A DNA stretch of 64,000 bases, from assembly GCF_005519465.1 (NCBI RefSeq), contig NZ_CP027858.1, forward strand, positions 2,728,001 through 2,792,000. Direction: 5' to 3'. Shown here piece by piece: positions 979-14,699 of this stretch. Position numbers and translations under genes: made by a program. The stretch is from Streptomyces clavuligerus. Its GTDB lineage: Bacteria > Actinomycetota > Actinomycetes > Streptomycetales > Streptomycetaceae. The notes under the pieces were generated by a model that saw only the letters and a list, made by a program, of their open reading frames with translations, searched no databases and was not told the origin of the DNA. How positions within the stretch are numbered: the first letter of the stretch is position 1; the number at the start of each line of letters is the position of its first letter.

Positions 979-1419
979 CTACGCCGCGGCGGCCCCCGTA
1001 CCCCGGGACGGGCGGAACACCGGCAGCGCCAGGTCGGGGGCCGTACGGCGGAAGGTGGCCTCCAGCGGCATGGAGACGCGCAGGGAGGCCGCGTCGCACT
1101 CGACGATCTCGGTCATCATGCGGGGGCCCTCGGCGAGGTCGACCACGGCGGCGATGTACGGGAGCCGCAGGCTGAACGGGGGCAGGTCGTTGCGGTGCAC
1201 GACGGACCAGGTGTAGAGGGTGGCCCGACCGCTCGCGGTCTCCCAGACGACGTCCGTCGCCCAGCAGAACGGACAGAACTCGCGCGGGTAGTGGTGGGCC
1301 CGGTGGCAGCCCCGGCAGCGGCGGACGAGGAGGCGCCCCTCGGCGGCGGCCTCCCAGTACGGGCGGGTCAGCTCGTCGATCTCGGGCAGCGCCTGCGGAG
1401 GCGGGGTCGGGGCGGTCAT
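979..1419 (-). CDS. Zn-ribbon/OB-fold protein (DUF35 family)
   Basis: A 146-residue protein of the DUF35 (ChsH2-tail-like) family. An N-terminal rubredoxin-like zinc ribbon uses Cys35, Cys38, Cys49 and Cys52, and an OB-fold follows at about residues 60-135 (ATLYTWSVVHR, PYIAAVVDL). Family members bind acyl-CoA and normally partner a SCP2-type thiolase or an aldolase. No thiolase gene is next to it here, so its partner must be encoded elsewhere, or it acts with the nearby acyl-CoA enzymes. The start ATG at 1419 lies about 40 bases downstream of a TCTGAC-type operator (1460-1476), the same motif found at other acyl-CoA genes in this window. Confidence 0.85.
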   Translation of the reverse strand: MTAPTPPPQALPEIDELTRPYWEAAAEGRLLVRRCRGCHRAHHYPREFCPFCWATDVVWETASGRATLYTWSVVHRNDLPPFSLRLPYIAAVVDLAEGPRMMTEIVECDAASLRVSMPLEATFRRTAPDLALPVFRPSRGTGAAAA

Positions 1420-1741
1420 CCGGCTTCTCCCTGCTCGGCCCAGTCGCGGACGGACCGCTCCTGACGTCCTGTCAGTTCAGCGGAAGGTCACCGGGCGGCG
1501 CAAGACTCCTGCACCGGGCAGTCCCCGCGCGGGGCGGCGGCCCGGTCCGGTCCGGCCCGCCCGCCTCCGCGAGCCCGCCCGGTCCGGCACGCTCCGGCCC
1601 GATCCAGCTCGGTCCGGCTCGGTCCGGCTCGGTCCGGCTCGGTCCCGTACGGTTTCGTACTGCGCAGGGACGAACGCCCATCCGGGAAATCCGTTCACCA
1701 CAGGGGTCGTTCACCCACCCGCACCACTACGCTCACGCGCC
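1420..1741. other. Intergenic region, promoters and short tandem repeat
   Basis: This 322-base gap separates the DUF35 gene (minus) from the FMO-type gene (plus). It contains an operator-like palindrome at 1460-1476. The ten-base unit ggtccggctc is repeated three times in tandem at 1611-1640, with degenerate copies on both sides. TACGCT at 1728-1733 lies eight bases before the FMO start codon, which would fit a leaderless transcript. No credible gene is present. Confidence 0.55.
1460..1476. promoter_or_regulatory. TCTGAC-N5-GTCAGA-type operator, copy 1
   Basis: The inverted repeat CTGAC-gtcct-GTCAG has perfect five-base arms. It lies about 42 bases upstream of the DUF35 start codon. The same half-sites at the same spacing occur at 3076, 19314, 24745 and 24835, each in front of acyl-CoA metabolism genes. 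The pattern fits a TetR-type repressor; the repressor itself is not identified. Confidence 0.6.
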
Positions 1742-2929
1742 ATGGACCGAAGCGACGACAGGGCGCCTGTCTACGTCATCGGAGGCGGGCCCGCAGGGCT
1801 CGCCACCGCCGCCGCGCTCCGCCGGCGCGGGGTGCGGGCGCTGGTGCTGGAGAAGTCCGACGCGGTGGGGGCCTCCTGGCGCGGCCACTACGAACGGCTG
1901 CGGCTGCACACCACCCGCAGGCTCTCCGCGCTGCCGGGGCTCGCGATGCCCCGGCGGTTCGGGCGCTGGGTCGCCCGCGACGACGTGGTCCGCTATCTGG
2001 AGAAGTACGCCGCGTACCACGAACTGGACGTGGTGACCGGGGTCGAGGCCCACCGCGTGGAACCGGCCGGACCCGACGGCTCCGGGCCCGGCTGGCTGGT
2101 GCACGCGAGCGGCGGACGGCTGCTCACCGGGCGGACCGTGGTCGTGGCGACCGGCTTCAACCACACCCCGTTCCTGCCGGACTGGCCCGGACGGGACGGC
2201 TGGACCGGGGAGCTGCTGCACGCGTGCGCGTACCGGGAGCCCACCGCGTACAAGGGACGGGACGTCCTGGTGGTCGGCGTCGGGAACACCGGGGCCGAGA
2301 TAGCGGTGGACCTCGCCGACGGCGGCGCCGCCCATGTACGGCTCGCGGTGCGGACGCCGCCGCACATCGTCCGCCGCTCGACGGCCGGGTGGCCCGCGCA
2401 GCGCACCGGAATCCTCACCCGGCGGCTGCCCGCGCCGCTCGTGGACCGGGCCGCCGGAACGCTCGCCCGGTTCGCCGTGCCGGATCTCGCCCCGTACGGG
2501 CTGCCGCGCCCGGACCAGGGGCTGTACACGCGGTTCCGTGAGGGCGCGGTCCCGGTCCAGGACGTGGGGCTGATCGACGCGGTGCGGTCGGGACGGGTAC
2601 GGCCGGTGGCGCCGGTCGCCTCCTTCGACGGGGGGATCGTGACGCTCGCGGACGGCAGCCGGATCGCCCCGGACGCGGTGATCCTGGCGACCGGGTACCG
2701 GCGGGGGCTTGAGGGGCTGGTGGGGCATCTGGGGGTGCTGGACTCCCGGGGCAGACCGGTGGTCCGGGGTGCCCGGAGCCCGGCCCGCGCGCCGGGGCTC
2801 TACTTCAACGGGTACACCAACCCGATCAGCGGGATGCTCCGTGAGATCGCGCTGGACGCGGAGAAGATCGCCCGGGTGGTGAGCAGGCGCGGGCGGCAGC
2901 ACCGGAACGGAACGGGAAGCGGAGGGTGA
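1742..2929 (+). CDS. Flavin-containing monooxygenase-like oxidoreductase
   Basis: A 395-residue FAD/NAD(P)H-dependent oxidoreductase. The FAD-binding Rossmann motif GGGPAG is at residues 14-19. An FMO-type fingerprint WTGELLHACAY (pattern F/WxGxxxHxxxY) lies near residue 160, and the second nucleotide-binding motif VGVGNTGAE follows near residue 180. The C-terminal ATGYRRG motif is also typical of flavin monooxygenases. The family inserts oxygen into N, S or carbonyl substrates; the substrate here cannot be read from sequence. No Shine-Dalgarno sequence is evident before ATG 1742, but TACGCT eight bases upstream could be the -10 of a leaderless transcript. It may feed the adjacent acyl-CoA pathway; that link rests only on proximity. 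Confidence 0.85.
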   Translation: MDRSDDRAPVYVIGGGPAGLATAAALRRRGVRALVLEKSDAVGASWRGHYERLRLHTTRRLSALPGLAMPRRFGRWVARDDVVRYLEKYAAYHELDVVTGVEAHRVEPAGPDGSGPGWLVHASGGRLLTGRTVVVATGFNHTPFLPDWPGRDGWTGELLHACAYREPTAYKGRDVLVVGVGNTGAEIAVDLADGGAAHVRLAVRTPPHIVRRSTAGWPAQRTGILTRRLPAPLVDRAAGTLARFAVPDLAPYGLPRPDQGLYTRFREGAVPVQDVGLIDAVRSGRVRPVAPVASFDGGIVTLADGSRIAPDAVILATGYRRGLEGLVGHLGVLDSRGRPVVRGARSPARAPGLYFNGYTNPISGMLREIALDAEKIARVVSRRGRQHRNGTGSGG

Positions 2930-3075
2930 GCATGGGCCGGGGTGCCCCGGCGCTCCCCGCGCACCGGCGCCCGCCGTGCACGGGACCGCGTCACCCCGGC
3001 CCCCTCAACCCCTTTCACCCCACGGGGATCACCCGGCCCGGCGCAGACCTTCCTGACCCTGCCCCGGCTCGCTAA

Positions 3076-3092
3076 TCTGATTACGCGTCAGT
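3076..3092. promoter_or_regulatory. TCTGAC-N5-GTCAGA-type operator, copy 2
   Basis: CTGAT-tacgc-GTCAG lies 35 bases upstream of the ATG of the acyl-CoA synthetase gene at 3127, in an AT-richer promoter segment. One arm has a single mismatch to the consensus. The spacing is the same as in the other four copies. Confidence 0.6.
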
Positions 3093-3126
3093 ATTTTGGC
3101 ACCGAGAGCAGGAGCGGGGTTCAGCG

Positions 3127-5364
3127 ATGCTCGGATCCACCCACGGCACCCTCACCTCCGACCTCCGCGCACGCGTCGTCGCCTGCGGTGAGACCCCCCG
3201 CGACGCCGTCGTCCACGACACGGCCGCCCCGGCCGCCGTCGCCGCAGGTGAGCTGGATGTCAGTGGACGGCCGCTGTATGCGCCCGTCCCCGATCTCGAC
3301 CGCTTCTTCCGGCCCCGTTCGGTCGCCGTCGTCGGGGCGTCCGACGGCGAGGGGCGGCCCAACACCGTCATCACCCGCCAGCTCGTCGCCTGGGCGCAGC
3401 GGGTGGGCGCGCGCTTATGCCCGGTGCACCCGGTGCGCGAGACCGTCTTCGGCCTCCCCTGTGTCCGCCGCGTCGGCGATCTGGCCGAACCCGTCGACCT
3501 CGCGGTCCTTCTCGTGGCCGACCCGCTGCCGCTGATCGACGAACTCGCCGACGCGAAGATCCCGTTCGCCGTCGCCTTCGCCTCCGGCTACGCGGAGACC
3601 GGCGCGGAAGGCGCCGAGGCACAGCGGCGGCTCGGCGACGCGGCCCGCCGGACGGGGGTGCGGCTCCTCGGGCCGAACACCAACCTCAACGCCTTCGAAC
3701 GGTTCCGGGACGATCTCGAAGGCCCCGCGATCGCGCTGATCACCCAGTCCGGCCACCAGGGGCGGCCCGTCTTCGCCCTCCAGGAGCTGGGCGTCCGGCT
3801 CTCCCACTGGGCGCCCACCGGCAATGAGGCCGACCTCGAAACCGCCGACTTCCTCTCCTACTTCGCCGAACGGCCCGAGGTCGGCGCCATCGCCTGCTAC
3901 GTGGAGGGGCTCAAGGACGGCCGGGCCTTTCTGCTCGCCGCCGACCGCGCGGCCCGGCGCGGGGTGCCGGTGGTCGCCGTCAAGGTGGGCCGCACCGCCG
4001 CCGGGGCGCGCACGGCCGCCTCGCACACCGGCAAGCTGACCGGCGCGGACCAGGTGGTGGACGCGGCGATGCGGCAGTACGGGGTGATCCGCGTCGACGG
4101 GCTCGACCAGCTCCAGGACACCTCCACCCTGCTGGCGCGGGCCCGGCCGCCGCTCGCCGACGGAGTGGCCGTGTACTCGATCTCCGGCGGCACCGGCGCG
4201 CATTTCGCCGATCTCGCCACCGTCGCCGGGCTGCGGCTCCCGGCCCTCGGCGAGCGGACGCGGCGCGCGCTGCACCAGTGGATACCGGAGTATCTGGACG
4301 TCACCAACCCCGTCGACAGCGGCGGCCACCCGGTGGGCGACGAGCGGGGCCGGAAGATCATCGACGCGATCCTGGCCGACCCGGCCGTGGGGGTGCTCGT
4401 CTGCCCGATCACCGGACCGTTCCCGCCGATGAGCGACCGGCTGGCCCGGGACCTGGTCGAGGCGGCGGAGACCACCGAGAAGCCGGTGTGCGTGGTGTGG
4501 GGCTCGCCGGTGGGGACGGAGGCGGCGTACCGCGAGACGCTGCTCGGATCCTCGCGGGTCACCACGTTCCGTACGTTCGCCAACTGCGTCACGGCGGTAC
4601 GGGCCTATCTCGGCCACCACCGTTTCGTCCGGTCCTACTCCTCCCCGTTCGACGAGGCGCCCCGGACCCCGTCCCCGTCGTTCCGCAAGGCGCAGGCCCT
4701 GATGCAGCCGGGGCAGCAGCTCAGCGAGCACGCGGCGAAGCAGCTCCTGCGGGCGTACGGGATACGGGTGCCGCGCGAGCAGCTCGTGACGAGCGCGGCG
4801 GCGGCGGTACGGGCGGCGGCGCAGGTCGGGTACCCCGTGGTGATGAAGGCGTCCGGCCCGCAGCTCGCGCACAAGACCGAACTGGGGCTGGTGAAGGTGG
4901 GGATCACCTCCGCCAGCCAGGTGCGGGACGCGTACCGGGAGCTGATCGACATCGCCCGGTACGAGGGCGTCGAGCTGGACGGTGTCCTGGTCTGCCAGAT
5001 GGTGGGGCACGGTCTGGAGACGATGGTCGGGGTGACGCGGGACGCCCTCTTCGGGCCGACGGTGACGGTCGGGCTCGGCGGGGTGCTGGTGGAGGTGGTC
5101 CAGGACACGGCTGTGCGGGTGCCGCCCTTCGGCGAGGGCGGGGCCCGGGCGATGCTGGACGAGCTGCGCGGGCGGGCCCTCTTCGACGGGGTGCGCGGCG
5201 GCCCGCCGCTGGATCTGGACGCGCTGGTCGAGGTGGTGCTGCGGGTGCAGCGGATGGCGCTGGAGCTGGGCGGGGAGCTGGCGGAGCTGGACATCAATCC
5301 GCTGGTGGTGCTGGAACGGGGGCAGGGCGCGGTGGCGCTGGACGCGCTGGCGGTGTGCCGGTGA
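3127..5364 (+). CDS. ADP-forming acyl-CoA synthetase (acetate-CoA ligase family)
   Basis: A 745-residue single-chain acyl-CoA synthetase that joins the alpha and beta parts of the ADP-forming acetyl-CoA synthetase family. It has a CoA-binding Rossmann domain (about 45-170, RPRSVAVVGAS), succinyl-CoA-ligase-like flavodoxin domains (about 190-490, with the SHTGKLTG segment) and a C-terminal ATP-grasp domain (about 520-745, VVMKASGPQLAHKTE and LAELDINPLVV). The expected reaction is acid + CoA + ATP to acyl-CoA + ADP + Pi. Actinobacterial members often activate unusual carboxylic acids, so acetate need not be the substrate. GAGCAGGAG precedes ATG 3127. The stop overlaps the GTG of the enoyl-CoA hydratase/isomerase gene (GTGA), so the two are translationally coupled. 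A TCTGAC-type operator lies just upstream. Confidence 0.88.
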   Translation: MLGSTHGTLTSDLRARVVACGETPRDAVVHDTAAPAAVAAGELDVSGRPLYAPVPDLDRFFRPRSVAVVGASDGEGRPNTVITRQLVAWAQRVGARLCPVHPVRETVFGLPCVRRVGDLAEPVDLAVLLVADPLPLIDELADAKIPFAVAFASGYAETGAEGAEAQRRLGDAARRTGVRLLGPNTNLNAFERFRDDLEGPAIALITQSGHQGRPVFALQELGVRLSHWAPTGNEADLETADFLSYFAERPEVGAIACYVEGLKDGRAFLLAADRAARRGVPVVAVKVGRTAAGARTAASHTGKLTGADQVVDAAMRQYGVIRVDGLDQLQDTSTLLARARPPLADGVAVYSISGGTGAHFADLATVAGLRLPALGERTRRALHQWIPEYLDVTNPVDSGGHPVGDERGRKIIDAILADPAVGVLVCPITGPFPPMSDRLARDLVEAAETTEKPVCVVWGSPVGTEAAYRETLLGSSRVTTFRTFANCVTAVRAYLGHHRFVRSYSSPFDEAPRTPSPSFRKAQALMQPGQQLSEHAAKQLLRAYGIRVPREQLVTSAAAAVRAAAQVGYPVVMKASGPQLAHKTELGLVKVGITSASQVRDAYRELIDIARYEGVELDGVLVCQMVGHGLETMVGVTRDALFGPTVTVGLGGVLVEVVQDTAVRVPPFGEGGARAMLDELRGRALFDGVRGGPPLDLDALVEVVLRVQRMALELGGELAELDINPLVVLERGQGAVALDALAVCR

Positions 5365-6254
5365 GCGGCGGGGGCGGCGACGGCCCGGCGGCGGCGGGCG
5401 ACGGGGGCGACCGCCCGGCGGCGGTCGGAGGGGAGCAGCACGGGGCGGGCGCGGCGACCGGGCTGCTGATCCGCTCGGAGGGCGCGGTCCGGTGGATCGT
5501 CCTCGACCGGCCGCAGGCGATGAACGCGCTGCTGTATCCGCAGTACGGATATCTCGTGGGGGCGCTGGAGGAGGCGTCCGGGAATCCGGACATCCGGGCC
5601 GTGGTCCTCACCGGCACCGGCAAGGGCTTCTGCACCGGGGCCGATCTGCGCTCGGGGGCCGGGCGCCCCGGCCCCGTGGAGCGGGTGCCGGGCGATCTGA
5701 CCCGGCGGCTCCGCCGCGGGGCGCAGCGGCTGATCGCCGCCGTCATGGACTGCGAGAAGCCGGTGATCGCGGCCGTCAACGGCACCGCCGCCGGGCTCGG
5801 GGCGCATCTCGCGCTCGCCTGCGACCTGGTGCTGGCGGCGGAGGAGGCCCGTTTCATCGAGGTGTTCGTGCGCCGGGGGCTGGTGCCCGACGGCGGCGGG
5901 GCGTATCTGCTGCCCCGGCTGATCGGGCCGCAGCGGGCGAAGGAGCTGATGTTCTTCGGGGACGTGGTCACGGCCGCCGAGGCGGAGCGGCTGGGGATGG
6001 TGAACCGGGTGGTGCCCGGGGCGGACCTGGAGCAGACGGCCAGGGACTGGGCGGAGCGGCTGGCCCGGGGGCCGACACGGGCCCTGGCCCTGACCAAGGA
6101 ACTGGTCAACGCCTCGATCGCGGGCGGGATGGACCGGTCGGCGGCGTTCGCGGCGGAGGCCGCGGCGCAGGAGGTCAACATGGGGACGGCGGACGCCCAG
6201 GAGGGTGTGCGGAGCTTCGTGGAACGGCGGACTCCGGACTTCCGGGGGCGGTGA
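5361..6254 (+). CDS. Enoyl-CoA hydratase/isomerase (PaaG-like)
   Basis: A 297-residue crotonase-fold protein starting at GTG 5361, which overlaps the preceding stop codon by four bases. The first 30 residues are a Gly/Ala-rich extension. The crotonase core follows, with the oxyanion-hole segments CTGADL and AAVNGTAAGLGAHLALACDL. The catalytic region reads LVPDGGGAYLLPRLIG, the PaaG-type pattern with Asp where classical hydratases have a second Glu, so double-bond isomerisation is at least as likely as hydration. It probably acts on the CoA thioester made by the coupled synthetase. Confidence 0.87.
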   Translation: MSGGGGDGPAAAGDGGDRPAAVGGEQHGAGAATGLLIRSEGAVRWIVLDRPQAMNALLYPQYGYLVGALEEASGNPDIRAVVLTGTGKGFCTGADLRSGAGRPGPVERVPGDLTRRLRRGAQRLIAAVMDCEKPVIAAVNGTAAGLGAHLALACDLVLAAEEARFIEVFVRRGLVPDGGGAYLLPRLIGPQRAKELMFFGDVVTAAEAERLGMVNRVVPGADLEQTARDWAERLARGPTRALALTKELVNASIAGGMDRSAAFAAEAAAQEVNMGTADAQEGVRSFVERRTPDFRGR

Positions 6255-6303
6255 GACCCCCGGAGCCCGGCCCGGCCGATGACCGGCCCGGCCGCCGTCA
6301 CCC

Positions 6304-6326
6304 GGCGGCCGCCTCCTCCGGCCGCC
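6304..6326. terminator. Possible convergent terminator hairpin
   Basis: GGCGGCC and GGCCGCC are separated by nine bases, in the 84-base gap between the convergent isomerase (plus) and ectB (minus) genes. There is no T-run, as is usual in this genome. The stem is short, so this is only a plausible terminator. Confidence 0.35.
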
Positions 6327-6338
6327 CCGGCCCGCCGC

Positions 6339-7604
6339 TCATACGGTGGCGAAGACCGAACGGGAGAGCAGCAGCAGCCCTTCGGCCAGTTCGTCCGAGG
6401 TGATGGTGAGCGGCGGCAGGATCTTCACCACCTCGTCGTCGGGGCCGGAGGTCTCCAGCAGCAGACCGTGTCCGAAGGCACGGGCACAGACGGCGGCCGC
6501 CCGCTCCCGGTCGGCGAACTCCAGGCCCCACACCAGGCCACGACCGCGGTGGCGGGCATCGAGCCCGGGCTCCGCGCAGAGGAGCCGCAGGGTCTCCTCG
6601 ACCTGTTCGCCCCGTGCGGCCGTCTGCTTCTCCAGTTGCTGATCCGACCAGTACAGGTCCAGGGCGGCGGTGGCCGTGACGAAGGCGGGGTTGTTCCCCC
6701 GGAAGGTGCCGTTGTGCTCACCCGGCTCCCAGAGGTCCAGCTCCGGCCGGAACAGACAGAGCGACATGGGCAGTCCATATCCGCTGATGGACTTGGACAG
6801 GGTGACGATGTCGGGGACGACCCCGGCCTCCTCGAAGGAGAAGAAGCCGCCGGTGCGGCCACAGCCCATCTGGATGTCGTCGACGATCAGCAACATCTCA
6901 TGGCGACGGCACAGGTCCGCGAGACCGCGCAGCCATTCGGCGCGGGCGACGTTGACACCTCCCTCGCCCTGGACGCACTCGACGATGACGGCCGCGGGCC
7001 GGTCGAAACCGGACCCCCGGTCCTCCAGCACCCTCTCGAACCAGAGGAAATCGGGGACTCGTCCATCGAGATAGCCGTCGTAGGGCATGGGTGTGCCATG
7101 GACGAGCGGGACACCGGCACCGGCCCGTTTGAACGCGTTGCCCGTGACGGAGAGGGAACCGAGTGACATTCCGTGGAACGCGTTGGTGAACGAGACGACC
7201 GACGTCCGCCCGGTCGCCTTGCGCGCCAGCTTGAGTGCGGCCTCCACGGCATTGGTTCCGGTCGGACCGGTGAACATGACCTTGTACCGGAGGTCACGCG
7301 GCCGGAGTATCAGCCGGTCGAAGGAGTCCAGGAACACCCGTTTGGCGGTGGTCGCCATATCGAGTCCATGGGTGATTCCGTCGTGCTCCAGATAATCCAT
7401 GAGGGCACGTTTCAGCACCGGATTGTTGTGGCCGTAGTTGAGGGAACCGGCTCCGGCGAAGAAGTCGAGATAGTGGCGGCCGTCCTCATCGGTGAGGCGG
7501 CTCCCCCGGGACCGGCTGAAAACCGTGGGCCAGCCACGGCTGTAGCTGCGTACCCGGGATTCCAGCGTGTGAAAGACATCGAGATCGGGCTGAGTGACAG
7601 TCAT
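6339..7604 (-). CDS. ectB: Diaminobutyrate-2-oxoglutarate aminotransferase
   Basis: A 421-residue class-III PLP aminotransferase of the EctB type. It carries the N-terminal VRSYSRGWPTVF signature, the FTGPTGTNAVEAALKLARK block, the cofactor aspartate in VDDIQMGCGRTG (about Asp242) and the Schiff-base lysine in TLSKSISGYG (Lys271). EctB makes L-2,4-diaminobutyrate from aspartate semialdehyde and glutamate. It is the last gene of a five-gene minus-strand operon and its ATG overlaps the ectA stop by four bases. No ectC or ectD follows: the next gene downstream is convergent and unrelated. The product is therefore probably used for something other than ectoine, or handed to an EctC encoded elsewhere. 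Confidence 0.93.
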   Translation of the reverse strand: MTVTQPDLDVFHTLESRVRSYSRGWPTVFSRSRGSRLTDEDGRHYLDFFAGAGSLNYGHNNPVLKRALMDYLEHDGITHGLDMATTAKRVFLDSFDRLILRPRDLRYKVMFTGPTGTNAVEAALKLARKATGRTSVVSFTNAFHGMSLGSLSVTGNAFKRAGAGVPLVHGTPMPYDGYLDGRVPDFLWFERVLEDRGSGFDRPAAVIVECVQGEGGVNVARAEWLRGLADLCRRHEMLLIVDDIQMGCGRTGGFFSFEEAGVVPDIVTLSKSISGYGLPMSLCLFRPELDLWEPGEHNGTFRGNNPAFVTATAALDLYWSDQQLEKQTAARGEQVEETLRLLCAEPGLDARHRGRGLVWGLEFADRERAAAVCARAFGHGLLLETSGPDDEVVKILPPLTITSDELAEGLLLLSRSVFATV

Positions 7605-8185
7605 GCGGGACTCCTGGGGGGACAGGGTGGCTCCTGCGCACCGCTACCGGCGGCCATCGGCCCGATGCGGTAGAGAATTTCGGGCTGGTGTTCCTTGTCG
7701 GGGAAGAGGTCATTGCTCAGCAGCCCGCATCGGTGCAGCGGGGCGCGCCGGCGGCGGGCATAGGAGGTGAAAAGACGGTCGGAGGCAGTGTTGTCGGGCG
7801 TCACCGTGGTCTCGACCGTCGTGATCCCCCGGCCGGGGACGACCCGGTCGGTGATGGCGTCCAGCAGCCTGCCTCCCAGCCCGTGCCCCCGGTAGGCACG
7901 GTCGACGGCGATCTGCCAGACGAAATAGGTGTCGGGTCGATCCGGACGGATGTATCCGGTGAGGAAGGCGACCGGGGTTCCGTTCGCCGCCCGGGCCACC
8001 AGGGATGTGCCGGAGAAGTCGCGGCACCAGATCAGATAGCTGTAGGGGGAGTTCAGATCGAGTGACTCGCTGTCGCGGGCGATGCGCCAGAGATCGCCTC
8101 CGTCCGCGAGGGACGGGGCGGCGATGCCGACCTCTTCCGGGCGTTCGCCCCTGTCGCCGATGCTCTCGGTCGACCTCATTCGCAT
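7601..8185 (-). CDS. ectA: Diaminobutyrate N-acetyltransferase-like GNAT
   Basis: A 194-residue GNAT acetyltransferase with strong EctA features: the LDLNSPYSYLIWCRDFSGTS segment at 42-61 and the acetyl-CoA pyrophosphate loop RGHGLGGRLL at 99-108. EctA transfers acetyl from acetyl-CoA to the 4-amino group of 2,4-diaminobutyrate. The N-terminal 20 residues are a polar extension, and a start at the second Met (8179) is also possible. A GGAGAGAAG sequence precedes ATG 8185. The stop overlaps the ectB start (ATGA). The 98-base gap from the upstream MFS gene holds a four-copy 14-base repeat. Without EctC, its product N-acetyl-diaminobutyrate would not be cyclised by this cluster. Confidence 0.9.
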   Translation of the reverse strand: MRMRSTESIGDRGERPEEVGIAAPSLADGGDLWRIARDSESLDLNSPYSYLIWCRDFSGTSLVARAANGTPVAFLTGYIRPDRPDTYFVWQIAVDRAYRGHGLGGRLLDAITDRVVPGRGITTVETTVTPDNTASDRLFTSYARRRRAPLHRCGLLSNDLFPDKEHQPEILYRIGPMAAGSGAQEPPCPPRSPA

Positions 8186-8211
8186 GGAATTTCTTCTCTC
8201 CCTCTGCTTCC

Positions 8212-8267
8212 GTTCCCTGCTGCCTGTTCCCCGCGGTCCGTTCCCCGCGGTCCGTTCTCCGCTGCCT
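8212..8267. repeat. 14-bp tandem repeat, four copies
   Basis: Four contiguous 14-base units begin with gttc. The two central units (8226-8239 and 8240-8253) are identical (gttccccgcggtcc); the outer two differ at a few positions. The array lies inside the operon, between the MFS stop and the ectA start. It could be a slippage product or could affect expression of the distal genes. Confidence 0.75.
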
Positions 8268-8283
8268 GTTCATGTGTCCTCGC

Positions 8284-9474
8284 TCATACCGCTTCTCTGC
8301 GCCGCATGTGCGGGGAGAGCAGGAGCTGAGCGCAGACAGCGATGGCGCACAGCCCGGCGCACACCCCCCAGAGCAGCGCGGCCCCGTGCTCCAGAAGGCG
8401 GGTGCCGAGAAGGGGGGCCGCCAGCATGGCGGTGGCCCACACCATTCCGTACAGGCCGTAGTACCGCCCGCGCAGATGCGCGGGGGCCAAGGGCGCCACG
8501 ATGGCCTGGTTGACCGCGCTGAACGCGATTTCCCCCAAGGACCAGACGATCACCGTTGCGCAGTACTCAAGGGCGGAGGAGGCCAGGGAGGTCAAACCGA
8601 ATCCGGTCCCCAGCAGCACCATTCCGAGCATCAGGACCCGGTGCGGGTCCATTCTGCTGACGACGGGCACCGAGAGGGGCTGGAAGACCACGACCACGAC
8701 CGCGTTGACCCCCATGATGAAACCGAACAGGGAAGGGGACAGGCCATCGAGGCTCATGGCCAGGGGAAGCGTCGTTCCCGCCTGACGGAACACCACTCCG
8801 TAGCAGAGCGTGACCATGAGATATCCGAGCATCAGCCGGTCCCGCAGAATCCCCAGGAACCCGCCCTTCGGCGGGGCCTCTCCCGGCACCGCCCCACTCC
8901 TGCCGAGCGCCGGAAGGGAACGCCATACCAGGAGCCCCGCCGCCACGCAGGTGGCGGAGTTGACATAGAAGAGGGAGGTATAGCCGTGCCGTACCAGCAC
9001 CCCGCCGAGGATCATGGAACATCCGTAACCGACATTCACCGCCCAGTAGACGAAGCTGTAGGCCCGCGGCAGATCCTGCGGGGAGAACTGGTGGGCCACC
9101 AGGGCCGCGACCGCCGGCCGGTACATCTCCGCCGTGGCCCCGACCAGAAAGGTACAGACGACGATGGGCCCGATCTGATCCGATGAGGCGAGGAACAGCA
9201 GGGCGAAGCCGGTCAGCGACATGCTTCCGGCCATGACCGATCGATAGCCGAGACGGTCGACCAGGATTCCGCCCACCCACTGACAGACGACTCCGCCGAT
9301 ACCGGCCGCCGTCAGAACGGTCCCCGCGGCGGTGACCGAGAGACCTTGTTCCTGAGTGAGGTAGTACCCGAGATAGGTGAGGACCATCGCGCCGATCTGG
9401 TTGGTGAACAGACCCGCGCAGACGCTCCAGAACGAGCGGTCGAAGCCGCCCGTCAGTGACTTCAGCCGGACCAC
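8284..9474 (-). CDS. MFS transporter, probable exporter
   Basis: A 396-residue major-facilitator protein with about 12 hydrophobic segments. The loop-2 motif appears as GGILVDRLGYRSVM near residue 70. The overall pattern resembles drug/H+ antiporter-type efflux proteins. The start is GTG 9474, six bases after the stop of the ligase-like gene, so it is translated from the same transcript. In this context it is most simply the exporter of the cluster product or an immunity pump. The substrate is unknown. Confidence 0.85.
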   Translation of the reverse strand: MVRLKSLTGGFDRSFWSVCAGLFTNQIGAMVLTYLGYYLTQEQGLSVTAAGTVLTAAGIGGVVCQWVGGILVDRLGYRSVMAGSMSLTGFALLFLASSDQIGPIVVCTFLVGATAEMYRPAVAALVAHQFSPQDLPRAYSFVYWAVNVGYGCSMILGGVLVRHGYTSLFYVNSATCVAAGLLVWRSLPALGRSGAVPGEAPPKGGFLGILRDRLMLGYLMVTLCYGVVFRQAGTTLPLAMSLDGLSPSLFGFIMGVNAVVVVVFQPLSVPVVSRMDPHRVLMLGMVLLGTGFGLTSLASSALEYCATVIVWSLGEIAFSAVNQAIVAPLAPAHLRGRYYGLYGMVWATAMLAAPLLGTRLLEHGAALLWGVCAGLCAIAVCAQLLLSPHMRRREAV

Positions 9475-9480
9475 TCCGCG

Positions 9481-10413
9481 TCAGGGGCAGTAGGCAGGCC
9501 GGTCAAAAGCGCTCTGGAGCATGATCTCGACGACCCTCCGGTACCCGAGACCGGAGGCTTTGGCCATGGCCGCCAGATTTCCCTGGAGGGTCAGCCCGGG
9601 GACGGTGTTGACCTCCAGCACCACGGGACGGTCCTCGCTGAGCATGAAGTCGACGCGGGCCACCCCGCGGCAGCCGCAGACGGTGAACACCCGGACGGCC
9701 AGCTCCTGCATACGGTCCCTGAGGGAATCGGGGATCGGCGCGGGGCACCGGTACTCGTGCAGTGAGGGGTCCTGCTTCGCCTCGCTGTCGTAGAACTCCC
9801 GCAGCGAGACGGCCTCCAGCACGGGAAGCGCCTCGATCTTGCCGTCGATGTCGAGAACTCCCACGGTAAAGGTGTTCCCCGTGAGGAAGGGCTCCGCGAT
9901 GAACTCGTCCGAGCTGTACTCGCCTTCCTCGGCGAGGAGTTCCCGGAGATCCTTGTCCGACCTGACGATGCCCGCCTCGAAGCTCTCGCCGTTGGAGGCG
10001 GGCTTGGCGAAGAGCGGCAGCCCGATCCCGGCTGTCACCCGGGATATCTGCGCGGCTGTGGCGCCCCTGCTCACGGGTTCCCAGGGAAGCGTCTCTATCC
10101 CATGGGCCACCATAAGACTCTTGAACGTGGGTTTGTGCATCCCGACGGAGCTGGCCAGCACTCCCGATCCGGTGTAGGGCAGCCCCATCACCTCCAGCAG
10201 CCCTTGGAGTTTTCCGTCCTCCGCATACCATCCGTGTCCGGCGATGAAGGCCGCCTCGAAGTCCGGAAGCCGCTTCCAGAAATCCGGCACCGATATATCG
10301 ACCACTTCTGTCTCGTGGCCCAGTTCCCGCAGCGCCTGCCCGGCAGCGTCGGCCGACAGGAAGGAGCCCTGGCCTTCAGGGCTCGGCCCTCCGGCCAGAA
10401 TGGCAACACGCAT
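9481..10413 (-). CDS. D-Ala-D-Ala ligase-like ATP-grasp enzyme, divergent
   Basis: A 310-residue ATP-grasp ligase of the Ddl family. The fold markers are clear: AGGPSPEGQGS at the N-terminus, LQGLLEVMGLPYTGSG, an ATP-grasp core around FAKPASNGES and the metal-binding LEVNTVPGLT. Aligned by eye with E. coli DdlB, catalytic Glu15 is kept (Glu13 here), as are Arg255 and Asn272 (Arg253, Asn269). Ser150 aligns with Glu143, Tyr216 with Gln214, and the Ser281-Leu282 pair that holds the second D-Ala with Gly278-Asn279. The start ATG 10413 has GAAGGGA upstream and lies 19 bases after the racemase stop. It may ligate a D-amino acid to a partner other than D-Ala, or be an inhibitor-tolerant Ddl. Confidence 0.82.
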   Translation of the reverse strand: MRVAILAGGPSPEGQGSFLSADAAGQALRELGHETEVVDISVPDFWKRLPDFEAAFIAGHGWYAEDGKLQGLLEVMGLPYTGSGVLASSVGMHKPTFKSLMVAHGIETLPWEPVSRGATAAQISRVTAGIGLPLFAKPASNGESFEAGIVRSDKDLRELLAEEGEYSSDEFIAEPFLTGNTFTVGVLDIDGKIEALPVLEAVSLREFYDSEAKQDPSLHEYRCPAPIPDSLRDRMQELAVRVFTVCGCRGVARVDFMLSEDRPVVLEVNTVPGLTLQGNLAAMAKASGLGYRRVVEIMLQSAFDRPAYCP

Positions 10414-10432
10414 CGTCAGTTCCCTTCTCGCT

Positions 10433-11491
10433 CTAGCTGACGGGTAAAGATCCGGAATGATCGTTGAGTATTCTCCGGTGGACCCGCAGCGGATCGTTCG
10501 AAAGTCCCGTGCACAACTCCCAGTTGGCCATGGAGGCGAACCGGAGATGACTCTCCATGGGAAGGCCGTCACCTATCAGGGTCACCGGAGTGCCGATCGG
10601 GAATCTCCTGGGCAGTGCCACGGTCAGCGCGTCCATGGAAACCGAACCGATCACCGTCGCGGGCTCGTCCCCGACCAGAACCGTGGTGCCGACCAGCCGG
10701 GACACGAAGCCGTCGCCGTAGCCGACCGGAACGACTCCCGTCACCGTCGGCCGGGTGACCCGATGGGCCCCTTCGTAGCCGACGGCGGCACCGGCCGGAA
10801 GGTTTCTCACCTGGGCGAGACAGCTGATCCAGCTCAGTGCGGGCCGCAGTGGGAGACGGCTGGACGGATTCGTCATCAGGGAGACGCCGAGCAGGGCACT
10901 CCCCGAACGCACCGCGTCCAGCCGGGCCGCCGGCAGGGAGAGCGCCGCCGAGCTGTTGCAGACATGGCGCGTCGCCCGGGGTACCGCCTCGCACTGCTCC
11001 AGGAACCGGGCGAGCTGGAGCGCGGTGACCTCCAGGTCGACATGGGCGTGGGAGAACTGCCCGAAGACACCGACCGGTTGCTCCCGCAGACGGTCCGGAA
11101 TCCGATCGAATCCGTATCTGTTCAGCCCCAGATTCACCTTGATGTGGTATTCGACGGCACCGGAGAGCGCTTCGAGGCTGGCATCGTCGTGTGCGACGCA
11201 CTCCAGGCCCGCGCGGCTCGCGGCGGGGACGGAGCCGGGGCCCACAGGCCCGAGGACGACAATGCGGGCCCGGGGGAATCTCTCGCGTAACGCCAGCCCC
11301 TCGCCGAGGGTCGCCACACAGAGCGCCCGGGCCCCGGCCTCCAGCGCCGCCCCGGCCACCGGGACCGCGCCGTGCCCATAGGCGTTCCCCTTGACAACCG
11401 CCCATAATTCGGCGCCGTCGACCATCTTTATCAGCTGCCGCGCATTGTGCCGAACCGCATCCAGATCGAGTGTGATTTCACTTCTGTGCAT
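10433..11491 (-). CDS. alr: Alanine racemase family protein
   Basis: A 352-residue fold-type III PLP racemase. Lys34 in AVVKGNAYGHG binds PLP, the second catalytic base is Tyr239 in AVGYEGAHRV, and the PVGYGDGF and GSVSMD motifs follow. The C-terminus reads WELCTGLSNDPLRVHRR where housekeeping enzymes usually have a tighter YEI...RVPR pattern, so it is probably not the chromosomal housekeeping copy. It should interconvert L- and D-alanine or a related amino acid. The start ATG 11491 is preceded by GGGAG. It is the first gene of the operon alr-ligase-MFS-ectA-ectB and supplies a D-amino acid, or confers tolerance to an alanine-racemase inhibitor. Confidence 0.88.
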   Translation of the reverse strand: MHRSEITLDLDAVRHNARQLIKMVDGAELWAVVKGNAYGHGAVPVAGAALEAGARALCVATLGEGLALRERFPRARIVVLGPVGPGSVPAASRAGLECVAHDDASLEALSGAVEYHIKVNLGLNRYGFDRIPDRLREQPVGVFGQFSHAHVDLEVTALQLARFLEQCEAVPRATRHVCNSSAALSLPAARLDAVRSGSALLGVSLMTNPSSRLPLRPALSWISCLAQVRNLPAGAAVGYEGAHRVTRPTVTGVVPVGYGDGFVSRLVGTTVLVGDEPATVIGSVSMDALTVALPRRFPIGTPVTLIGDGLPMESHLRFASMANWELCTGLSNDPLRVHRRILNDHSGSLPVS

Positions 11492-11817
11492 GAGCCATCT
11501 CCCAGCCGGACGGAATGTGGAACAGAAGTTCGCCACCGATGTTCCGCGCCGGAAGCAGACCCAAGAGTGCAACTGGCACTTACGGGCGGCAAGAGCCAAG
11601 GGCAGGTGCGGCTCAAAATGATCTGTTGCCGCTCCGGGCGCCCGTACGGAGGCGCGATGACCGGCCACTTCGGCCGATCGGCACCCGGACAGCGGCCTTC
11701 ACCAGCCAGAACACCAGCTACGACATAAGCGGAATCAGCACCCGAAGAGCCAGAACATATACGCATATCTGCGACACATCACTCTTGCTTTATCGGCCGA
11801 ATTTACCTTGTGGGGTT
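11492..11817. other. AT-richer promoter island upstream of alr operon
   Basis: A 326-base gap between alr and the C39-like peptidase gene, both on the minus strand. It is clearly poorer in G+C than its surroundings: 11701-11760 has 31 G/C of 60, while 13081-13140 has 47 of 60. It must hold the promoter of the alr operon, but no convincing -35/-10 pair stands out. An AT-rich near-palindrome, catatacgcatat, lies near 11755. No gene is seen. Confidence 0.5.
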
Positions 11818-12444
11818 TCAGGGCCGGGCGAGCGTCACTCCGCGTCCGGCGTAGAACCGGTCGAGATCGTTCCAGGGCACGCGCGCGAACTCCTGCGAAC
11901 CGCCGGGGAATCCGGACGGGTTGTGGATCACCAGATGCTCCGGGGTGGCCCCGACCGCCAGCACGAGATGACCGCCCTTCCCCGGCGGTACGCGGTGCGG
12001 CTCACGGATGGCGGGGTGCACCGAGAGCATCAGCAGCTCGCCGGAGGCGAGGCGGCCCGGGACGTCCGCGGCGGGGAGGTCCGGGTGCGCCTCGGCGCGG
12101 AGTCCCCAGCGGGAGGAGACATGGGCGGCGAACGGCGCGTAGATCAGCCCGTCCAGTCCGTCCCCACGCCGGACATAGGCTCCGGCCCCGACGCACTCGG
12201 CCGCCAGGGCGAGGGGCGGCGGCGCCACGCCCAGCCAGTGGCGGAGCGTCATCCGCAGACAGGCCATGCCGCACAGCCGCCAGGACCACCAGTCGTACTC
12301 CTCGGGGCTCGTGGCTCCGTACTCGGCCCACAGGGGGTCGTCGGCGGCGCGGATCTCCCCCGTCACGATCTCGCGCACCAGCCCGGGCGAGGCCCACTGG
12401 GAGTAATAGGGGACAGGGTGGATCAACTCGATGCCATCGGTCAT
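11818..12444 (-). CDS. C39-family-like cysteine peptidase domain protein
   Basis: A 208-residue protein of the peptidase C39-like fold. The probable nucleophile is Cys58 in the LCGMAC motif, the His is in GGHLVLAVG and the acidic/amide partner is in HNPSG. It has no signal peptide, transmembrane segment or ABC domains, so it is a stand-alone cytosolic member and not a bacteriocin exporter. The start ATG 12444 was chosen because the conserved N-terminal block (PVPYYSQW) begins just after it. It lies 326 bases upstream of alr on the same strand, and whether it belongs to that operon is uncertain. It is divergent from the flavin reductase gene. Confidence 0.78.
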   Translation of the reverse strand: MTDGIELIHPVPYYSQWASPGLVREIVTGEIRAADDPLWAEYGATSPEEYDWWSWRLCGMACLRMTLRHWLGVAPPPLALAAECVGAGAYVRRGDGLDGLIYAPFAAHVSSRWGLRAEAHPDLPAADVPGRLASGELLMLSVHPAIREPHRVPPGKGGHLVLAVGATPEHLVIHNPSGFPGGSQEFARVPWNDLDRFYAGRGVTLARP

Positions 12445-12547
12445 GGTCCCGCAGTCTGCCCCGGCCGGGGAGCGGCCTGTCAAACACGCCGAGCCTGTCA
12501 ACCCACCCCTTCTCAACCGACATCCCGGCCGTTTCAATGGGAGGGTG

Positions 12548-13249
12548 ATGGGACACGCAGCCATGGCCGAGACCGCCATCCGCTATCTCCGCTCGGCCGC
12601 CTCCCAGGCCGCCGCGACCGGGGCGGGCGGCGATGCCGCCGCCGGGGACGGGGAGGCCGCCGTGCCGGGTCCGCGGGCGCGGCTGCGGGCCGTCGGGGTG
12701 GACGAGCGGGCCCCCGGGGCGGCCGGGCAGCCGCCGGCGGACATCGACGCGGGGGAGTTCCGGCGGGTGCTCGGGGGCTTCCCGAGCGGGGTGACCGTGA
12801 TCACCGCGCACACCCCCGACGACCCGGCCGGGCCCGCCGGGTTCGCCTGCCAGTCCTTCTCCGCGCTCTCCCTCGATCCGCCGCTCGTGGTCTTCATGGT
12901 GGGACGGACCTCCTCGACCTGGCCGAGAATCGCCCGTGCCGGGGGGTTCTGTGTGAACGTGCTGAACGAGGATCAGGGCGCGCTCTGCCGGGGGTTCGCG
13001 GTGAGCGGCGCGGACGGGCGGGACAAGTTCGCCGGGGTGGCGCACCGCCCGGCGCCGGTCACCGGGTCCCCGCTGCTCACGGGGGCGCAGGCGTGGCTGG
13101 ACTGCCGGGTCCACGCCGTGCACCCCGGGGGCGACCATCTGATCGTGGTGGGGCGGGTGCTCGGTCTCGGGGCGGCCGATGACGGCGCGGGGGAGCCGCT
13201 GGTCTTCCACCGGGGCGCCTTCCGTCGGCTCGCCCGGCCGCAGCCGTAG
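12548..13249 (+). CDS. Flavin reductase family protein
   Basis: A 233-residue protein with a C-terminal FMN-binding split-barrel (about 75-230): FRRVLGGFPSGVTVITA, CQSFSALSLDPPLVVFMVG, and RGFAVSGADGRDKFAGV. Such proteins are the reductase components of two-component flavin monooxygenases or NAD(P)H:FMN oxidoreductases. The first 70 residues are a low-complexity Ala/Gly-rich extension. GGGAGG precedes ATG 12548, which decides this start over earlier in-frame codons. The promoter gap contains a direct repeat, GCCTGTCAA, at 12475 and 12493 (18-base period). No oxygenase component is adjacent; the nearest oxidases are the FMO-type protein at 1742 and the acyl-CoA dehydrogenases. Confidence 0.87.
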   Translation: MGHAAMAETAIRYLRSAASQAAATGAGGDAAAGDGEAAVPGPRARLRAVGVDERAPGAAGQPPADIDAGEFRRVLGGFPSGVTVITAHTPDDPAGPAGFACQSFSALSLDPPLVVFMVGRTSSTWPRIARAGGFCVNVLNEDQGALCRGFAVSGADGRDKFAGVAHRPAPVTGSPLLTGAQAWLDCRVHAVHPGGDHLIVVGRVLGLGAADDGAGEPLVFHRGAFRRLARPQP

Positions 13250-13346
13250 CCGTCGGCGCGGGTACGGGCACCGGCACGGGCCCGGCCGTCCGCCCCGGCC
13301 GCGACCGTCCGCCCCGGCCGTCCCGCCGCCGTCGCAGCCGCTCCGG

Positions 13347-14699
13347 CTACGCGGCCGTCCGCTCCGCCACCGCCCCGGCGGCGGGCGGCCCCGGGGTGTC
13401 CGGGGCGTCCGGGGCTGTCGGACGGGTGATCACCAGGGCCATCAGCGCGGCCGTCGCGCACAGCGCCCCGGAGGCGTACCAGACCACGTCGTACGAGCCG
13501 AAGGCATCCCGCGCGACCCCGCCCGCGAAGGCCACGATCGCGGCGCCGACCTGGTGGGAGGCGAGGACCCAGCCGAAGACGATGGCGCTGTCCTCGCCGT
13601 AGTGCTCCCGGCACAGGGCGATCGTCGGCGGCACGGTGGCCACCCAGTCGAGCCCGTAGAAGACGATGAAGAAGACCATCGGCAGCTCCACCGACGGGGC
13701 CAGCAGCATCGGCAGGAAGAGCAGGCTGATCCCGCGCAGGGCGTAGTACACGGCGAGCAGCCTGCGGGTGTCGAAGCGGTCCGTGAACCAGCCGGAGGCG
13801 ATCGTTCCGACGATGTCGAAGACGCCGATGACCGCGAGCAGGGAGGCCGCCGCCGTGACCGCCATGCCGTGGTCGTGGGCGGCGGGCACGAAGTGCGTCT
13901 TCATCAGGCCGTTGGTGGAGGCGCCGCAGATCGCGAAGGTGCCCGCGAGCAGCCAGAAGGGCCCCGTGCGCGCGGCCCGGAGGAGCACCGTCACCGCCCG
14001 GCGGGCGGCGCCGGGGACCGGGGGCGGCTTGGGCACCGCCTCGGTCGCGCCGTAGGGGGCGAGTCCCACGTCCGCCGGGTGGTCCCGGAGCAGCAGCAGG
14101 ACGAACGGGACGACGCAGAGCGCGGAGAGCGCGACCGTGATCGAGGCGGGCCGCCAGCCGTGCTCCTCGACCAGCCAGGAGAGCAGCGGCAGGAAGACGA
14201 GCTGCCCGGAGGCCCCGGCGGCGGTGAGGACGCCGGTGACCAGGCCGCGCCGGGCGGCGAACCAGCGGTTGGTGACGGTGGCGGCGAAGGCCAGCGCCAT
14301 CGAGCCGCTGCCGAGGCCGACGAGGACGCCCCAGTAGAGGACGAGCTGCCAGGTGGTGGTCATGACCGTGGTCAGCGCGGAGCCCAGCGCGATGACGGTG
14401 AGGGCGACGGCGACCACCCGGCGTATCCCGAAGCGGTCCATGAGGGCGGCGGCGAACGGCGCCGTGATCCCGTACAGCGCCAGATTGACCGAGACGGCGA
14501 AGCCGACGCTCCCGCGTGACCAGTCGAACTCCTCGTGGAGCGGGTCGATCAGCAGCCCGGGGAGCGAGGTGAAGGCGGCGGCGCCGACGATCGTCACAAA
14601 GGTGACGGCGGCGACGGACCACGCGCGGTGGACACGGGGGGCGCGGAGGGGGCGGTTTCTGGTCACAGACGTCAGCATCCGGGGCGGGCCGATCACCAT
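13347..14699 (-). CDS. MFS transporter, monocarboxylate/OFA-like
   Basis: A 450-residue major-facilitator permease with 12 predicted membrane segments; the loop motif AALMDRFGIRRVVAVAL lies near residue 85. Its layout resembles OFA/monocarboxylate-type carriers, so uptake of an organic acid for the adjacent acyl-CoA pathway is plausible. Neither ATG 14699 nor ATG 14678 has a clear Shine-Dalgarno sequence, and the shorter start would remove seven residues. It is transcribed divergently from the GlxA-type regulator 38 bases away, the usual arrangement for a regulator and its target permease. Confidence 0.83.
   Translation of the reverse strand: MVIGPPRMLTSVTRNRPLRAPRVHRAWSVAAVTFVTIVGAAAFTSLPGLLIDPLHEEFDWSRGSVGFAVSVNLALYGITAPFAAALMDRFGIRRVVAVALTVIALGSALTTVMTTTWQLVLYWGVLVGLGSGSMALAFAATVTNRWFAARRGLVTGVLTAAGASGQLVFLPLLSWLVEEHGWRPASITVALSALCVVPFVLLLLRDHPADVGLAPYGATEAVPKPPPVPGAARRAVTVLLRAARTGPFWLLAGTFAICGASTNGLMKTHFVPAAHDHGMAVTAAASLLAVIGVFDIVGTIASGWFTDRFDTRRLLAVYYALRGISLLFLPMLLAPSVELPMVFFIVFYGLDWVATVPPTIALCREHYGEDSAIVFGWVLASHQVGAAIVAFAGGVARDAFGSYDVVWYASGALCATAALMALVITRPTAPDAPDTPGPPAAGAVAERTAA

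Follow-up and report, generated by a model that had tools for sequence, protein, structure and literature searches.

A 64,000-nucleotide stretch of the genome of Streptomyces clavuligerus, the clavulanic-acid producer, was analyzed (C1:2728001-2792000 in a genome of two contigs, C1 and C2; this whole stretch is referred to as the window, and positions without a contig name are window positions). Between 11491 and 6339 of the window, five genes lie on the minus strand in the order alr, ligase, MFS, ectA, ectB. These encode an Alr-type racemase dependent on pyridoxal phosphate (PLP; 10433..11491, 352 amino acids), a Ddl-fold ATP-grasp ligase (9481..10413, 310 amino acids), a transporter of the major facilitator superfamily (MFS) that is a putative exporter (8284..9474, 396 amino acids from a GTG start), a second copy of the L-2,4-diaminobutyrate N-acetyltransferase EctA (7601..8185), and a second copy of the diaminobutyrate--2-oxoglutarate transaminase EctB (6339..7604). 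The alr and ligase genes are separated by 19 bases, the ligase and MFS genes by 6, and the MFS gene and ectA by 98, and ectA and ectB overlap by 4. This five-gene arrangement had been given in a preliminary description of the DNA, and the coordinates and family profiles agree with it.

That description overlooked a sixth gene, as well as the family of ligase, C39 and MurF/MurC loci to which it leads. The gene encodes a C39-like peptidase and lies on the same strand (11818..12444), 326 bases upstream of alr, with 208 amino acids when read from the ATG at 12444 and a longer open reading frame from 12579. By gene coordinates, the interval from the C39 gene to alr spans 11492..11817. The ligase, the racemase and the C39 protein are of ordinary size and look soluble, and the C39 peptidase is probably cytosolic.

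Ligase and racemase as extra copies with altered residues

To place the ligase and the racemase, both proteins were compared with curated family models and with the rest of the genome. The ligase scored 129.4 bits against PF07478 (cut-off 24) and fell under the cut-offs of the D-Ala-D-Ala ligase subfamily models (207.3 against 245.65 for TIGR01205, and 235.5 against 243 for PRK01372), and the racemase scored 209.8 bits against TIGR00492 (cut-off 168). In the genome search, a Ddl at C1:1514360 scored higher than the window ligase (230 bits compared with 131), and an Alr at C1:2482915 scored higher than the window copy (145 compared with 87). Because these separate, stronger genes are present, the window alr and ligase are extra copies, and the concern raised earlier that they might be the only housekeeping Ddl and Alr does not apply. 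The window ligase is 36% identical to the housekeeping Ddl, and the racemase is 29.6% identical to the housekeeping Alr.

Ligase residues were examined in an alignment of 22 rows, consisting of the window ligase and 21 hand-picked relatives, with E. coli DdlB as the reference. The DdlB catalytic and ATP residues E15, K144, K215, R255, D257, E270 and N272 are retained in all 22 rows. Four other positions are altered relative to DdlB: Y216 in 22 of 22 rows, S150 in 21 of 22, S281 in every row (G in 21 and A in 1), and L282 likewise in every row (N in 21 and T in 1). The window ligase has E, Q, G and N at S150, Y216, S281 and L282, respectively. The S281 position is one that we take to contribute to holding the second D-Ala. 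The housekeeping Ddl retains S150, Y216 and S281. According to excerpts of PMC7691350, ligases with D-Ala-D-Ala as their sole product conserve S150 and Y216. Since the window ligase has changes at residues that characterize strict D-Ala-D-Ala ligases, its sequence favors a product other than D-Ala-D-Ala, and to this extent the preliminary description, which had proposed a ligation product of another kind, appears to have pointed in the right direction.

A ligase tree of 50 rows, 44 of which belong to the ligase family, separates this family from canonical Ddl at 100/99 support. Nested within the family are a clade of 12 that includes the window ligase (98/98), a branch from the C39/MurF loci (100/99), and a plasmid-type branch (99/96). 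P0001 and P0002 are sisters in this tree (100/98), and P0003 and P0004 are adjacent to them. When 362 genomes of the genus were searched with P0003 at E 1e-90, none was returned, an empty outcome that is no proof of absence. A search of 395 relatives' genomes with the racemase at E 1e-75 returned only the S. clavuligerus genome itself; many genomes recur across these searches.

In the racemase, the catalytic Lys and Tyr positions are retained in an alignment to a solved Alr structure. The equivalent of Tyr354 is Trp in the racemases of the window and of S. aureocirculatus (locus L014), and it is Tyr in the housekeeping Alr. An excerpt of PMC3485190 describes Tyr354 as strictly conserved in Alrs and as Asn in VanT. 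A VanT-like serine racemase was considered as an identity for the window enzyme and was dropped, as the aligned position is Trp and not Asn.

These results bear on an explanation that the preliminary description had also offered, namely that the two enzymes are drug-tolerant copies that would protect against a D-Ala antimetabolite (e.g., one resembling cycloserine), with the MFS protein acting as an efflux pump. Second copies of both drug targets do lie beside an MFS gene, altered enzymes can likewise confer resistance, and mobile Ddl cassettes can give resistance to D-cycloserine, as stated in part of PMC7691350. However, the strict-Ddl residues are altered across the sampled family, in contrast to the Ddl6/Ddl7 resistance cassettes, which keep them in the account excerpted from the same paper, and the Tyr354 position of the racemase is Trp. 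In addition, no warhead-making genes were noticed among the neighbors looked at, and this explanation leaves EctAB and C39 unaccounted for. Because the ligase and the racemase both have altered specificity residues, simple resistance duplicates are clearly unlikely, and the earlier suggestion is weakened.

The C39 peptidase and the wider ligase family

The C39 protein has a Gln/Cys/His/Asn catalytic set, and its predicted model has a papain-type fold. The model aligns with pseudomurein endoisopeptidase, among many other papain-like enzymes. A sequence search against the PDB, with either the single sequence or a profile and up to E 1, gave no match. Within the genome, the window C39 is the sole match at E 1e-5.

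To describe the wider family, 21 relatives' loci were opened wide: 6 from the genus search (all non-self matches at E 1e-60), 7 from plasmids (7 of 9 matches at E 1e-40, with H3 and H9 left out), and 8 from the family search (8 of 14 non-self matches at E 1e-60, one of the remaining six being already in hand). The neighbor counts are tblastn matches to a few queries, for which a missing mark is no proof of absence. The ligase itself was found in 21 of 21 loci and C39 near it in 19, MurF in 16 (12 long matches and 4 to the C-terminal domain only), a fold-II PLP enzyme in 12, and a MurC-like protein in 6. An MFS match was seen in 1 of the 21 (L025, 26% identical to the window's), Alr in 0 of 21, and EctA or EctB in 0 of 21. 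In the short loci of the family search, C39 lies no more than 1.5 kb from the ligase in 11 of 14. The ligase-C39 part is the conserved core, and the ectoine part looks peripheral.

The plasmid loci (L044-L050) combine the ligase, the PLP enzyme and C39 in 7 of 7, together with MurF in 6 of 7 and a MurC-like protein in 5 of 7. In L044, the MurF scored 404.2 (cut-off 288.6), and the second Mur ligase scored 332.3, compared with a MurC cut-off of 335.1. The best solved relatives of the L044 PLP enzyme are a fission-yeast protein, which we take to be a serine racemase, a threonine dehydratase, and proteins named serine racemase, so that the L044 enzyme may be a racemase or a dehydratase. The Streptomyces operons of L044, L046-L050 (plasmids) and L027 contain the ligase, the fold-II PLP enzyme, C39 and MurF, with a MurC-like gene in 6 of 7. 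The Nonomuraea locus (L045) is without MurF and encodes DppA-like and peptide-deformylase-like proteins, both under curated cut-offs; for the former, the best NCBIfam match was the D-aminopeptidase DppA (203.6 bits, cut-off 430). The L044-L050 and L027 operons have the appearance of an alternative gene set for cell-wall precursors that is partly mobile.

Several further arrangements were observed in these loci. In L022 (7520-7876), L023 (8092-8463), L024 (8724-9086) and L092 (7880-8245), C39 is followed by a separate MurF C-terminal domain of roughly 120 amino acids, and in two proteins, P0148 and P0160, C39 is fused to the C-terminal domain of a Mur ligase. An ATP-grasp system for a ribosomally synthesized and post-translationally modified peptide (L047 15591-17974, annotated tgmA, tgmB and tgmC) lies close to the plasmid cassette of S. 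chartreusis, and L023 4133-5275 matches, under cut-off, the same methyltransferase model as that system. In 9 of 29 loci (L060-L063, L072, L075, L081, L082 and L087), a C39 gene whose product is 60-69% identical to the window's, with no ligase nearby, has a ribulose-phosphate 3-epimerase-like gene in its vicinity; all nine come from one other genus of the family (g99), with the epimerase assigned by eye. Among the matches listed in the open-licence PMC literature, none was recognized as describing the operon or a ligase/C39/MurF cassette, which is weak evidence of absence, and the wider, partly plasmid-borne ligase/C39 gene family seems to be undescribed.

The Mur ligases in the relatives allow for a peptidoglycan-remodelling role at the S. 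clavuligerus locus. The dipeptide would not be exported in this case; the housekeeping MurF would add it to give stem peptides with an altered end, C39 would remove D-Ala-D-Ala or trim normal precursors in the manner of VanX/VanXY, and EctAB would either supply a diaminobutyrate-type residue or be unrelated. The frequency of MurF or its C-domain and of MurC-like genes in the opened loci is consistent with such remodelling, as are the Nonomuraea DppA-like protein and the alignment of the C39 model with pseudomurein endoisopeptidase, which is one of many papain-like enzymes so aligned. However, the search found no Mur ligase next to the operon in the window, the one MurF above cut-off in the genome lies outside the window, and S. 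clavuligerus and S. aureocirculatus each have an MFS gene between the core genes or next to them. On balance, remodelling is somewhat unlikely for this locus, yet it is a close rival of the reading preferred below.

EctA, EctB and the transporter

The window EctA scored 188.6 bits against TIGR02406 (cut-off 120.6), and EctB scored 650.8 bits against TIGR02407 (cut-off 552.2). As the preliminary description had stated, there is no EctC at the locus, since both EctC matches of the genome (C1:5428868 and C2:1452664) are outside the window. The complete ectABC that it had suggested looking for is present around C1:5428868. An ectC elsewhere in the genome that is co-regulated with the operon had been named there as evidence against the proposed interpretation; an ectC does exist elsewhere, in its own ectoine locus. 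The window copies are 78% (EctB) and 56% (EctA) identical to those of the ectoine locus. The second EctC-like gene (L004 8638-9012, at C2:1452664) stands alone in a neighborhood of trp-like and NRPS-like (nonribosomal peptide synthetase-like) genes, the types of which were assigned by eye, and no ectA or ectB match was found in the 18 kb around it. This orphan was considered as a partner of the window EctAB and was dropped as unlikely, given its trp-like/NRPS-like setting without ectAB.

If the extra EctA and EctB simply raise the flux to ectoine, then EctC would be drawn from the ectoine locus and the neighboring genes would be unrelated. The separate ectA, ectB, ectC locus and the 78% identity of EctB are compatible with this osmolyte side branch, and ectoine was detected in S. 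clavuligerus extracts, as reported in a passage of PMC6856088. In contrast, the shared strand and the 98-base spacing between the MFS gene and ectA suggest a single operon that includes ectAB, and EctA has diverged from the ectoine-locus copy and, in the tree described below, forms a pair away from the remaining EctAs. Such an osmolyte role is therefore highly improbable.

A tree of 121 EctA rows was built from the 119 best matches after the window's own, the window EctA, and the EctA of the S. clavuligerus ectoine locus. In this tree the window EctA and P0278 form a pair with 97/95 support, apart from the other 119 rows, on long branches (0.94 for the window EctA and 0.45 for its partner). 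P0278 comes from Streptomyces sp. NPDC048254, which also holds the closest ligase (P0002, 79%) and a C39 protein (P0122, 71%), and each of the three lies on an NPDC048254 contig of 219,806 bases. From these sequences, the window EctA is apparently part of a dedicated lineage that one other strain shares, which is supported but not proven. Such a lineage, shared with a strain that carries the ligase and C39 as well, fits a diaminobutyrate-derived product, and the sisterhood of P0001 and P0002 beside P0003 and P0004 fits a gain of EctAB on one branch.

The L014 locus of S. aureocirculatus, on a 4,123-base contig, has alr, the ligase, the MFS gene and a convergent C39 gene without ectAB, and the one EctA of that genome is on a different contig. 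The MFS protein of this locus is 58% identical to the window's, which itself scored 160.6 bits against PF07690 (cut-off 33.4). Because EctAB was found in none of the 21 opened loci and because S. aureocirculatus has the core without it, the two genes look like a lineage-specific addition. Of the five-gene co-occurrence that had been proposed for a search, the alr-ligase-MFS part recurs in S. aureocirculatus, but EctAB does not recur in the opened loci.

In terms of transcription, a transcript from alr to ectB may possibly begin within 11492..11817. A scan of 6000-13000 for sigma-70-type consensus gave 0 sites (0.6 in shuffles), and an Rfam search of 6000-13500 at E 0.1 gave no match; therefore, neither a promoter nor a riboswitch is demonstrated in this interval. 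The terminator scan gave 3 sites, compared with 2.3 in shuffles. One library of models for known anti-phage defence systems (PADLOC), searched with 10 proteins (6 from the window and 4 from L044) at E 0.001, gave 0 matches. Window positions 979-6254, which adjoin the operon, encode a weak BbsA-like match, an FMO-like (flavin-containing monooxygenase-like) flavoprotein, an ADP-forming acyl-CoA ligase-like protein and an enoyl-CoA hydratase, which suggests a catabolic block unrelated to the ligase/C39/ectAB locus.

A putative dipeptide cassette and its relation to known systems

The gene set, the extra copies, the altered residues of the ligase and racemase, the C39 fold (as a predicted model) with its catalytic residues, and the recurrent association of ligase, C39 and MurF are established, and from them we infer the substrates, the C39 reaction, the export and the biological role as follows. 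A supply enzyme, which would be the Alr-type racemase in the window and a fold-II PLP enzyme of the serine racemase/threonine dehydratase family in the plasmid relatives, may provide an unusual D-amino acid, and the Ddl-fold ligase would join it to a second amino acid. C39 would then edit the dipeptide or peptide pool, for example by removing D-Ala-D-Ala, or would cut or transfer the new dipeptide. In most of the opened relatives, a dedicated MurF, sometimes accompanied by MurC, could pass the product to UDP-MurNAc. In the S. clavuligerus branch, a dipeptide containing diaminobutyrate or N-acetyl-diaminobutyrate would leave the cell as a small antimetabolite. An exported diaminobutyrate-type dipeptide is the likeliest product here because no Mur ligase was found and the MFS gene and the EctB-EctA pair have been added. 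Our preferred reading is thus a Van-like D,D-dipeptide cassette in which the S. clavuligerus branch gained a diaminobutyrate supply and a transporter and exports the dipeptide, a tentative view to which we would give a little less than an even chance.

Several observations weigh against this reading. The window C39 is up to 69% identical to C39 proteins without such a ligase nearby, compared with 55-61% for most cassette C39s and about 40% for the plasmid type, and this greater likeness to ligase-free proteins implies that C39 has roles outside the cassette. In the ligase alignment, 4 of 22 rows have another residue at H63, so that even the retained ligase chemistry varies. As EctAB was found in none of the 21 opened loci, it may serve another step. 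The pairing of the window EctA with P0278 is uncertain because of the long branch (0.94) and because ordinary EctAs resemble the window EctA just as closely (up to 69% identity, compared with 67% for P0278). The NPDC048254 linkage consists of equally sized contigs within one strain and is not a read locus, and a chance match of size was seen for P0354 of another strain, which is on a 4,123-base contig, as is L014. The MFS protein has no clear specificity, as all NCBIfam matches were far under cut-off (e.g., 49.7 of 582 for YdeE). Finally, the housekeeping MurF could use the dipeptide, which would result in a wall modification and not in an exported product.

If the preferred reading is true, Actinobacteria would have a second family of cassettes for cell-wall precursors or D,D-dipeptides, borne on both plasmids and chromosomes, with a papain-like enzyme in place of the Van peptidases. 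Such a family would be relevant to the ways in which producers defend or arm themselves at the D-Ala step, and it would suggest that a well-studied industrial strain may make a new dipeptide metabolite. A broader proposal, that the family is a second and independently assembled solution to the task of the Van operons, with serine, or in S. clavuligerus a diaminobutyrate-type residue, possibly taking the place of alanine, is in our view unlikely.

Van systems use zinc peptidases, and those of the VanC type consist of the serine racemase VanT, the D-Ala-D-Ser ligase VanC and the peptidase VanXY. The window locus is similar to Van-type cassettes in that a supply enzyme, an altered Ddl-fold ligase and a peptidase are encoded together as extra copies. 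It differs from them in that the peptidase is of the C39/papain type and not of the VanX/VanXY/VanY family, the racemase has Trp where VanT has Asn, and MFS and EctAB are present. Among the 25 matches listed for the window ligase, the Van ligase models scored 82-132 bits, far under their cut-offs. Compared with Ddl, the ligase shares the ATP-grasp fold and the catalytic and ATP residues, but S150, Y216, S281 and L282 are replaced and it falls in a separate clade. The Streptomyces and Nonomuraea operons of L044-L050 have the same ligase and C39 families as the window, whereas they use a fold-II PLP enzyme instead of Alr and contain Mur ligases, and no EctAB, Alr or MFS was found in them with the queries used. 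The window resembles the ectoine cluster ectABC(D) in having EctA and EctB above curated cut-offs, and it differs in its lack of EctC, its other neighbors and its diverged EctA. The D-cycloserine cluster, which is treated in a review (PMC6804068), likewise has a Ddl-like ligase and a transporter together; the window ligase, in contrast, departs from Ddl at the specificity residues.

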